Source: Pseudomonas wuhanensis (GTDB lineage Bacteria; Pseudomonadota; Gammaproteobacteria; Pseudomonadales; Pseudomonadaceae). From it: 64,000 bases of DNA. The stretch covers positions 1,240,001 through 1,304,000 of the forward strand of contig NZ_CP117430.1 in assembly GCF_030687395.1 (NCBI RefSeq), written 5' to 3'. The position numbers were made by a program, and so were the translations under genes. Of the stretch, positions 25,389-26,762 are shown piece after piece; positions within the stretch are counted from its first letter, which is position 1; the number at the start of each line of letters is the position of its first letter. The notes under the pieces were generated by a model. That model was not told where the DNA came from. It did not search any database and worked only from the letters and a program-made list of their open reading frames with translations.

Positions 25389-25439
25389 GTTGGCTGCGAT
25401 TTGGGGCGTGGCGGCCTTAGGGCCGGCCAGGTTCTTGGT

Positions 25440-25800
25440 TGATTGAGTACATATCCATTTCTGCGGTGACGGCGGCTTATGGTTTCGCCCTTACGGCGAG
25501 TCCCTTTTGGCAAACGCCCCAAAAGGAACCAAAAGGTCTCGCCCCAAGCGTCCGGCCCCTCGCTGAGGCTCGGCGTTCCTTCGTTCCGGTATCCATCTGG
25601 GGGCATCGCCCTACGGTCTGCTTCGCTACGACCTACATGCGATGGGTTCGACTGCGTCGAACGGCGCTGCGCGCCAATCCCCAGATGAACACCTCCACTC
25701 AGCCTCCCGAAGGGGCGGGCAGATCAAAATCAAAAGCCAGATCAAAAGCTGCAGGCGAGCTAACGCTCGGCCTGTTGAGTGGTGAGGGGCAAGTACACAC
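25440..25800. repeat. ~350-bp structured intergenic repeat (Pseudomonas dispersed type)
   Basis: No supported gene lies here, although ORFs run through in several frames. The stretch contains several short perfect hairpins: CGCC/GGCG at 25486-25498, GTTCGAC-TGC-GTCGAAC at 25646-25662, GGCGC-TGC-GCGCC at 25663-25675 and CGAGC-TAAC-GCTCG at 25756-25769. Low-complexity pieces (CCCCAAAAGGAACCAAAAGG; ATCAAAATCAAAAGCCAG) are also present. I believe the same block recurs in many pseudomonad genomes and gives rise to spurious hypothetical proteins. That is recollection, not something this single copy proves. Confidence 0.6.
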
Positions 25801-25808
25801 CGCTCCAC

Positions 25809-25834
25809 TGTGGGAGCGGGCTTGCCCGCGATGG
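25809..25834. repeat. Single REP arm
   Basis: TGTGGGAGCGGGCTTGCCCG followed by CGATGG, without an inverted partner nearby. It abuts the right end of the structured repeat. Confidence 0.8.
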
Positions 25835-25980
25835 CGACCTCACAGGCAACGACGTTTATTGATCGGTAAAAACATCAGAACCTTCCCACAAGTCTTTCAG
25901 GTTGTGCGTCGGAAGTGCGTTCTCTAACCTTTGGCTGTCGCTGCCAATTCAGTGACCGGGACTGCAAGCCCGCCGATAGT

Positions 25981-26023
25981 TTGTTAGACACCTTTAAGCG
26001 CACCTATAATCGTGGCGCTTAAA
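25981..26023 (+). promoter_or_regulatory. Sigma-70-type promoter with palindrome bracketing the -10 box
   Basis: TTGTTA (25981-25986) and a consensus TATAAT (26005-26010) are 18 bases apart. The -10 box lies in the middle of a perfect 9-bp inverted repeat, TTTAAGCGC (25993-26001) and GCGCTTAAA (26015-26023), with a 13-base centre. The half-site centres are 22 bp apart, two helical turns, as expected for a dimeric repressor. Predicted transcription start is about 26017. It should drive the structured leader and the DUF6124 gene. Confidence 0.7.
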
Positions 26024-26172
26024 TCAATGGTCATCGATTTATGGTGGCTGTGTGCGGGAGACCTTCGGGTCTGCCGGGGCCTAACAACTCGGTCTTGCAG
26101 ACCCGCGCACAGCTGCCACCCATCATCTGCAAGTGATGCTGGTAGCTCCAACTTTTTGTTAGGAGTTTCACA
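26017..26172 (+). ncRNA. Structured 5' leader of the DUF6124 gene (candidate cis-regulatory RNA)
   Basis: A 16-bp stem (26043-26058 with 26102-26120, one 3-base bulge and one G-U) encloses a 5-bp AGACC/GGTCT hairpin with a cUUCGg tetraloop (26059-26072). A second loop, held by CCG/CGG, exposes CCTAACAA (26080-26087). That octamer is exactly complementary to TTGTTAGG (26156-26163), which contains the start of the gene's Shine-Dalgarno AGGAG. Alternatively CTCCAAC (26146-26152) pairs locally with GTTAGGAG. A small hairpin (CATCA/TGATG, 26121-26138) lies between. The leader could switch translation on and off. This is inferred from base pairing by eye. Confidence 0.6.
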
Positions 26173-26176
26173 ATGA
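26027..26176 (+). CDS. Leader ORF (49 aa) overlapping the DUF6124 start
   Basis: An ATG about 10 bases from the predicted transcript end opens a 49-codon frame (MVIDLWWLCAGDLRVC at the start, SSNFLLGVSQ at the end). It runs through the entire leader and stops at TGA in ATGATC, overlapping the DUF6124 ATG by four bases (ATGA). It has no Shine-Dalgarno, so translation would be near-leaderless. If translated, ribosomes would melt the leader stems and reinitiate at the downstream gene. A second, 31-codon ORF in another frame (26041-26136) is also open. Whether either is real needs comparison of other copies. Confidence 0.35.
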   Translation: MVIDLWWLCAGDLRVCRGLTTRSCRPAHSCHPSSASDAGSSNFLLGVSQ

Positions 26177-26574
26177 TCAAAGACAGCCCAAATCCTCCAG
26201 AAACAGACTTAGAAACAGACGTAGAAACAAACATGGAAAACGAATCCGTTTCCCCCTACGCCTGCCTCAATTCCAAAAAACTCCACGACGCAGCAATCCG
26301 TGCACTCGATCACTATCTCGCACCACCTTCCCGGAAGAAGGCCAAAGCCGACCAGCGTCCAAGTACGATTTTCGTCGTCGCGCCCAACGTAGATTCCGAA
26401 ACCCTGCTGGCCCATGCCTGTGAAACCTTGGCCTCGGCGAATGTCATGGCCAGTGAGTTGGCGTTCGATCTCACCGGCCCAGCGTGCAATCTGGCATTGG
26501 GGATTCAGCAGATGATTTCCCTGGCGGAGTTGTCGGTGAACCGGGTGCTGGATCATCTGGACCCGCAGGGGTAG
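26173..26574 (+). CDS. DUF6124 family protein
   Basis: A 133-residue cytosolic protein. A threonine/glutamate-rich N-terminus with near-repeats (DLETDVETNMEN, residues 12-23) is followed by LNSKKLHDAAIRALDHYL, a linker, and FVVAPNVDSETLLAHACETLASANVMASELAFDLTG in shorter pieces. The C-terminus is helical (MISLAELSVNRVLDHL). The plan matches the Pseudomonas family DUF6124, small proteins often present in several copies per genome and without known function. AGGAG stands 7 bases before the ATG. It is monocistronic, with its own promoter, leader and terminator, inserted between purL and the nag operon. Confidence 0.8.
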   Translation: MIKDSPNPPETDLETDVETNMENESVSPYACLNSKKLHDAAIRALDHYLAPPSRKKAKADQRPSTIFVVAPNVDSETLLAHACETLASANVMASELAFDLTGPACNLALGIQQMISLAELSVNRVLDHLDPQG

Positions 26575-26619: not shown

Positions 26620-26645
26620 AGATTTGCGGTGTTCGTGAGGGCCTC

Positions 26646-26738
26646 TTCGCGAGCAAGCCCGCTCCCACATTTTGACCGAGTCGGTCATAAGAATTACGAA
26701 CGCCGCCGATCTACTGTGGGAGCGGGCTTGCTCGCGAA
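26646..26738. repeat. Pseudomonas REP pair
   Basis: Inverted 24-bp arms TTCGCGAGCAAGCCCGCTCC... (26646-26669) and the complement (26715-26738) across a 45-bp spacer, in the convergent gap between the DUF6124 gene and nagE. Confidence 0.92.
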
Positions 26739-26762
26739 AGCCGACTCTCAGGCGCCAAAAAT

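Follow-up and report, generated by a model that had tools for sequence, protein, structure and literature searches.

The window analysed here, a stretch of 64,000 nucleotides from the genome of Pseudomonas wuhanensis, carries on its forward strand a gene encoding a 133-amino-acid DUF6124 protein (26173..26574, ATG at 26173; PF19619, 97.4 bits), which lies between a left neighbour that we take to be purL and a right neighbour that is presumably a PTS gene. The gene is preceded by a structured leader. In an Rfam scan of the whole window, C4 families were the only ones found over their gathering scores, and neither a riboswitch nor a thermosensor was among these matches. The C4 antisense RNA (RF01695) matched at 26037-26123 on the plus strand with 70.4 bits (E = 1.1e-11), its gathering score being 45. 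The family c4-a1b1 (RF03163), which represents the upstream copy of the C4 target, matched at 25924-25976 on the same strand, and we grade this match as borderline since its 46.8 bits stand against a cut-off of 46.7. Judged by its sequence, the leader is a member of the known C4 antisense RNA family, preceded by the target copy c4-a1b1.

The names a, b and C4 of the elements were fixed from the annotated P1 record (AF234172). Read along the plus strand, the unit of the window consists of a promoter-like sequence, a1, b1, C4 with its b' loop and its a' segment, a2, b2 and the start codon. The putative promoter lies upstream of a1b1 and is made of TTGTGC (25902-25907), a 17-nt spacer and TAACCT (25925-25930); it is absent from the list of a stricter promoter scan, and a similar T-G and TA consensus was seen in 39 of the 48 C4 units of this genome, namely those with an a1b1 match paired to C4. 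a1 (CTGCAAG, 25962..25968) is the complement of a', and b1 (TTGTTAG, 25981..25987) is a weak complement of part of b'. The predicted mature C4 RNA (26043-26120) starts with GGTGG after TTAT, as in P1, and its main stem, with arms GGTGGCTGTGTGCGGG (26043-26058) and CCCGCGCACAGCTGCCACC (26102-26120), encloses a TTCG (26064-26067), the b' recognition loop CCTAACAA (26080..26087) and a' (CTTGCAG, 26094..26100). Downstream are found the a2 hairpin (26121..26138), with a2 (CTGCAAG, 26127-26133) in its loop, and b2 TTGTTAGG (26156..26163), the target of b', which overlaps the Shine-Dalgarno sequence. A local hairpin (26146..26165) pairs CTCCAAC (26146-26152) with GTTAGGAG (26158-26165) and has the Shine-Dalgarno AGGAG in its 3' arm.

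The stretch between b1 and C4 contains a perfect 9-bp inverted repeat, TTTAAGCGC/GCGCTTAAA (25993..26023, plus strand). Perfect inverted repeats of at least 6 are found at this place in 15 of the 48 units only, and the units L028, L057 and L068 of the same genome show there a hairpin followed by a T run. A second promoter-like site (25981-26010, TTGTTA-N18-TATAAT) overlaps b1 and would give a C4 devoid of a1b1; it matches 10/12 and is not above chance (one found for 0.5 expected, sd 0.7).

The original prediction had described this leader as a candidate RNA switch able to sequester the ribosome binding site. All the motifs that it named are present in the window at the positions given, and the 8-bp pairing that it proposed between a loop and the Shine-Dalgarno sequence is present in the letters and corresponds to b'/b2. 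Of the six elements that pair, four had escaped it, namely a', a1, a2 and b1, as had the promoter-like pair at 25902/25925. The leader is a structured RNA that can hide the Shine-Dalgarno sequence of the DUF6124 gene. Its predicted fold has a z of -4.5 and is more stable than those of all 200 shuffles. The predicted mature C4 gave a z of -5.2 (0/200 shuffles as stable), and the target stretch alone (26121-26180) was not unusual (z of -1.5; 17/200 shuffles as stable). When the target region is folded, the Shine-Dalgarno sequence is predicted to be paired. The competing CTCC/GGAG pairing of the local hairpin, also proposed to hide this sequence, is indeed predicted for the window target as well as for many paralogues and is mostly conserved, but its covariation is weak (z of -2.6 over 46/48 units, L048 and L068 being left out). 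Likewise, the proposed invasion of the main-stem 3' arm by GGTAGCT (26141-26147) holds as far as its pairing with AGCTGCC (26111-26117) is conserved, but here again the covariation is weak (z of -3.3, for -1.2 with the control arm).

What did not hold is the assignment to translational riboswitches or thermosensors, since the leader belongs to an antisense family whose P1 prototype is excised and acts in trans. We rejected a ligand riboswitch because a ligand-binding core should be conserved, whereas the recognition loop is hypervariable from one unit to the next, and because Rfam gives only C4 at gathering score. A thermosensor was set aside on the same hypervariable loop and on the Rfam result, which shows no described thermosensor family at gathering score. 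The original prediction had also considered that an overlapping reading frame could explain the conservation. This coding explanation was rejected because the C4 lengths (84-93 nt) do not keep the frame across units and because a frame open through C4 and ending near the start codon is present in 15/48 units, the window included; the overlapping frame is thus not conserved.

A C4 RNA is expected to be an RNase P product of about 77 nt. In P1, RNase P is reported to release C4 from a longer transcript; the RNA acts in trans and binds its targets around the ribosome binding site, which blocks the synthesis of the antirepressor. P1 and P7 are set apart by a difference of 4 nt. The order in the P1 record is a1, b1, C4, a2, b2 and icd (AF234172), the latter being described as a gene that inhibits cell division. 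The window unit resembles P1 immI in being recognized by the same covariance models (68.8 + 51.0 bits for P1, 70.4 + 46.8 bits for the window), in the order from promoter to start codon and in the distance at which b2 ends before the start codon (10 nt in P1, 9 nt in the window). It differs from a P1-type immI in that the putatively controlled gene is DUF6124 whereas P1 controls icd-ant, and in that the Pseudomonas units are chromosomal, one genome carrying about 48 copies whose addresses have diverged.

The genome of the window (G000, 6.59 Mb in one contig) contains 48 C4 matches, 46 of them over gathering score, 47 c4-a1b1 matches (23 over gathering score) and 39 DUF6124 matches. A C4 is present at most 450 nt upstream and on the same strand for 33/39 DUF6124 matches, for a chance of about 0.0016 per gene, and is missing for the six others. 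When one first frame was chosen for each of the 48 units, 33 matched DUF6124, two DUF3077, two Bro-N and one a methyltransferase (Pfam, E <= 0.01); the ten remaining frames had no Pfam match at this threshold, among them L025, a truncated DUF3077 with an E of 0.01. The methyltransferase frame (L048) stands behind a C4 that has no fitting target. By coordinate comparison, five of the eight DUF3077 matches of the genome lie in C4 units. Other DUF6124 and DUF3077 genes do have leaders of this kind in front of them, as the original prediction had suggested. The Bro-N proteins, which are antirepressor-like, belong to units L030 (G000 248501) and L070 (G000 5417431) and come closer to the P1 arrangement. 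Overall, we see a known RNA family in a new, strongly multiplied setting.

Several loci depart from the complete unit. Two C4 copies, L053 (G000 2428334) and L071 (G000 1332771), apparently carry the same IS-like insertion end at a similar place. At L075 (G000:C1:4177576-4177770), which has no C4 and lies near a PrrF sRNA, one gene matches both DUF6124 and DUF3077, which suggests a relationship between these families. Some DUF6124 genes were also observed to have an a1b1 leader and no C4 over gathering score (L072, L073, L079, L080, L085 and L086, as well as L114, L116, L117, L120 and L122); their regulator, if any, would be encoded elsewhere.

To study the specificity of the C4 RNAs, we calculated the duplex energies that b' and a' of each C4 reach with the targets of every one of the 48 units, and set the cognate pairs against permuted partners. 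As loop ends were cut at fixed offsets, some loops include stem bases, and the figures quoted first are those obtained with trimmed offsets. The 48 loop segments with their flanking bases are all different, and an 8-nt core, TCCTAATT, is common to L025 and L036. Cognate pairing gave z values of -19.8 for b'/b2, -14.1 for b'/b1, -14.0 for a'/a2 and -12.8 for a'/a1, and wrong-arm controls gave +1.9 and -0.2. With the four arms summed, the own unit was the best of 48 in 41 rows (1.1 expected, at most 5 in 200 permutations) and failed to be so in seven; with a2 and b2 alone, it was the best in 34/48. With untrimmed loops, these numbers fell to 36/48 for four arms, leaving 12 units that fit another target better, and 18/48 for two arms. 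Over 8 nt, the cognate b'/b2 pairing was perfect in 24/48 units, scored at least 7.3 in 33 and at least 6 in 44, for 1.2%, 3.2% and 12.0%, respectively, of the 2256 non-cognate pairs. The window unit ranks first among the 48 for b'/b2, a'/a2 and a'/a1 and 25th for b'/b1. Cofolding of C4 with its targets brought a gain of -0.4 and -1.8 kcal/mol, which we weighed neither way because the program cannot form kissing loops. A second genome, G009, has 38 C4 and two DUF6124 matches and shows the preference for the own unit in weaker form: the own unit was best in 20/38 with a2 and b2 (z of -13.5), hence 18/38 fail, and in 17/38 with four arms (z of -13.4), and the a'/a1 signal was absent (z of -0.6) over these 38 C4 units. 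As judged by predicted pairing, the recognition loops have diversified and the targets have changed with them, so that most units fit their own targets best.

In our view, the leader very probably represents an antisense switch of the C4 type, located on the chromosome and present as tens of units, most of which silence their own DUF6124-type gene. We infer processing, action in trans, repression and the conditions of release as follows. From a1/b1 through C4 and the a2/b2 target to DUF6124, the unit would be transcribed as a single RNA. C4 would be excised from it, by RNase P if P1 is a guide, and its b' loop and a' segment would pair with b2, over the Shine-Dalgarno sequence, and with a2 of the mRNA of the same gene. 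The DUF6124 protein would be made only while C4 is short. The CTCC/GGAG hairpin may tune the switch, as may GGTAGCT when it pairs with the 3' arm of C4. By analogy, each Pseudomonas unit should silence its own gene because it has the same anatomy as P1, and since the recognition sequences have diverged, most units are predicted to silence themselves and not their paralogues.

Alternatively, the C4 RNAs could form a shared network acting mainly on several paralogues or on other genes, the match with the neighbouring target being partly inherited. In favour of this proposal, 29 non-cognate pairs are predicted to be stronger than both cognates (two untrimmed arms, sum < -24 kcal/mol), and DUF6124 genes led by a1b1 without a C4 exist, as described above. 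The C4-less target beside L026 ranks first of 48 for the C4 of L026 with untrimmed loops and is outside the top 4 with trimmed ones; more generally, the best partners of C4-less targets shift between the two cuts, which speaks against a network. The genome G009 contains tandem C4 copies without an evident target gene directly behind them (L204, at C21:16214-16512, and also L190 and L192), which would fit a network, and many of its units, read by eye, start another small protein of the kind MKK-VPDPP. However, the fit of 41/48 units to their own target when the targets of all 48 are compared, and the way in which loop and own target have changed together in orthologues, make a shared network unlikely.

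This joint change was seen among relatives of the window unit. From named Pseudomonas genomes, 57 DUF6124 loci were collected, 39 of which have a C4 over gathering score. In these 39 units plus the window, the b'/b2 pairing over 8 nt is perfect in 20, scores at least 7.3 in 32 and at least 6 in 36. In the P. farris relative L078, b' reads CCTAATGA and b2 TCATTAGG, two positions having changed on both sides, a compensatory change; b1 is unchanged despite the change of b'. Where C4 has been lost, in L079, L080 and L124, b2 has drifted and a T run now precedes AGGAG. The stems of C4 vary jointly too: in 122 distinct copies, compared by fixed offsets without alignment, 92.8% of the cells are paired, for 82.3% with shuffled partners, and 19/22 stem pairs have changes on both sides. 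The covariation called for by the original prediction, in the main stem and in the 8-bp pairing, is thus found in both, and the compensatory changes whose lack would have spoken against it exist. The DUF6124 protein is under purifying selection, as judged by a dN/dS of 0.04-0.20 against eight relatives, with 0.09 and 0.10 for the C4-less L079 and L080. What the sequences show directly is that the leader belongs to the C4 family, that the elements can pair and vary jointly, and that the protein is under selection.

At the site of the window, 17 of the 18 fetched regions (15 genomes; L177 was left out) were compared. The left gene is directly followed by the right gene, and the unit is absent, in G561, G087, G046 and G457; the unit is present in G553, the gene without C4 in G540 and G083, the 3' part only in G503 and a diverged relative in G536. 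The other regions compared are incomplete or cover one side only. The unit is bracketed by repeats (25800-25850 and 26640-26753) that we take to resemble REP elements; in G457, exactly what lies between them is missing, with the break between 25800-25850 and 26704-26753. Upstream of the unit, the stretch 25409-25845 looks like a dispersed repeat because it matches many Pseudomonas sites away from the purL side; one copy lies in the same genome at the paralogue 5860090-5861153, adjoining another C4-DUF6124 unit.

The DUF6124 and DUF3077 families are of unknown function in Pfam. The structure model of the window DUF6124 protein (mean pLDDT of 74) shows helices at 34-48, 52-55, 75-99 and 102-129, an uninformative helical hairpin that had no match at E <= 0.001 in BFVD or PDB. 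A PHROGs search with ten proteins gave no match for the window protein, and L026, L027 and L042 share weak matches to phrog_6327. In open-licence full texts, where subscription papers are mostly missing, we found no mention of DUF6124 and no report of C4 paired with DUF6124; DUF3077 is mentioned there in a single paper, in passing.

A harmful DUF6124 protein with C4 as its RNA antidote, in the manner of a toxin-antitoxin or selfish module, could also be proposed. An antisense RNA covering the start of a small protein, many copies and presence or absence at one site would agree with it, as would the inhibition of cell division by icd, which occupies the equivalent position in P1. Nevertheless, L079 and L080 have lost C4 and still keep an intact DUF6124 under constraint, and a PADLOC search with seven proteins gave no match for the window protein, the matches of L066 and L026 having E >= 0.011. 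We thus regard such a module as quite improbable.

Still lower stands a leader switch acting in cis, in which the transcript would alternate between structures hiding and freeing the Shine-Dalgarno sequence, depending on a ligand, temperature or transcription kinetics, and no free antisense RNA would be made. The b' loop can indeed pair with b1 upstream or b2 downstream in the same molecule, the local hairpin also hides the Shine-Dalgarno sequence and the pairing of GGTAGCT with the 3' arm is conserved. Given that Rfam returns only C4 families at gathering score, that the loop is hypervariable between units and that the P1 prototype is reported to act in trans, we consider this reading very unlikely. 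That the units are prophage remnants whose RNA no longer does anything is hardly credible, for although some are broken (the two C4 copies with IS-like insertions, the target-less C4 of L048, the truncated DUF3077 unit L025) and C4 has been lost at an orthologous site, compensatory changes, matched addresses in most units and purifying selection on the protein speak against it.

C4 was found in 110/119 sampled Pseudomonas genomes, 46 of them with at least 20 copies, when the best 33 candidates per genome were counted; the window genome has 33 in this count and 48 when searched alone. DUF6124 was found in 95/119 of these genomes, never without C4, and 15 genomes have C4 without DUF6124; the two counts are correlated over the 119 genomes (Spearman 0.89, on capped counts). 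Among 320 other sampled gammaproteobacterial genomes, 20 have C4, with at most 10 matches each among the best 13 candidates scored, and DUF6124 was found in none. DUF6124 was absent from 72,556 plasmids and present in one of 50,697 phage records, a P. fluorescens record of the prophage type with its own C4, near prtR. A DNA search with the window unit gave four records of the phage collection, three of which are named Pseudomonas phages with a C4 over gathering score and the fourth of which is unannotated. The DUF3077 protein L027 had no tblastn match in phages at 1e-3. From this distribution in genomes, phages and plasmids, the RNA belongs to a phage-type module, and the DUF6124 units appear to have expanded on the chromosome inside this genus. 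The three phage-collection records with C4 units, L209, L210 and L211, come from Pseudomonas phages or satellites; in this group a GC-rich hairpin and a T run separate a1b1 from C4, and the first reading frame of L209 and L210 resembles by eye that of L028.

C4 is already known in the immunity of P1 and P7 and in multi-copy Acinetobacter sRNAs with open targets, and Weinberg et al. 2010 list it for Proteobacteria and phages (PMC2864571). For the C4-like Group 1 sRNAs of Acinetobacter baumannii, expression and RNase P-like processing are reported, and the paper presents itself as the earliest account of so large a group within a single genome (PMC5320573). Like the Pseudomonas units, these sRNAs combine many C4 copies per genome, a conserved scaffold and a variable recognition loop; their targets were left open, whereas the Pseudomonas units carry their own predicted target and gene, which covary. 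With tens of chromosomal C4 copies, each accompanied by an evident target, the role of multi-copy C4 RNAs can be put to a direct test, and the DUF6124 and DUF3077 families become approachable through their regulation. Should the predicted pairings function, a single cell would contain a natural collection of tens of near-orthogonal antisense repressors, in which the divergence of RNA specificity following duplication could be studied and which could supply parts for gene control in the laboratory.

As to the function of the protein, we can only speculate. The P1 ant gene is expressed upon entry into a non-immune cell. Since the lock would open only in the absence of its own C4, a foreign unit with a new address would be expressed at once, and one with a known address would stay silent. 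One phage immunity switch could thus have become a register of self and non-self, made of tens of largely insulated locks on genus-specific small-protein families; we consider this doubtful. Were it true, the response to incoming DNA would be carried out by the DUF6124 and DUF3077 proteins.

A last observation concerns IsrK, a separate sRNA. The Rfam model of isrK from the Salmonella Gifsy-1 prophage (RF01394) matches a1b1 hairpins, above gathering score in L097, L210 and L211, and because of these matches IsrK may correspond to the leader portion of a unit of the C4 type; it differs from the Pseudomonas a1b1 hairpins, which are the 5' part of a C4 unit. In the window, the same model matches the a1b1 hairpin at 25937-25984 with 26.2 bits, below the gathering score of 50.
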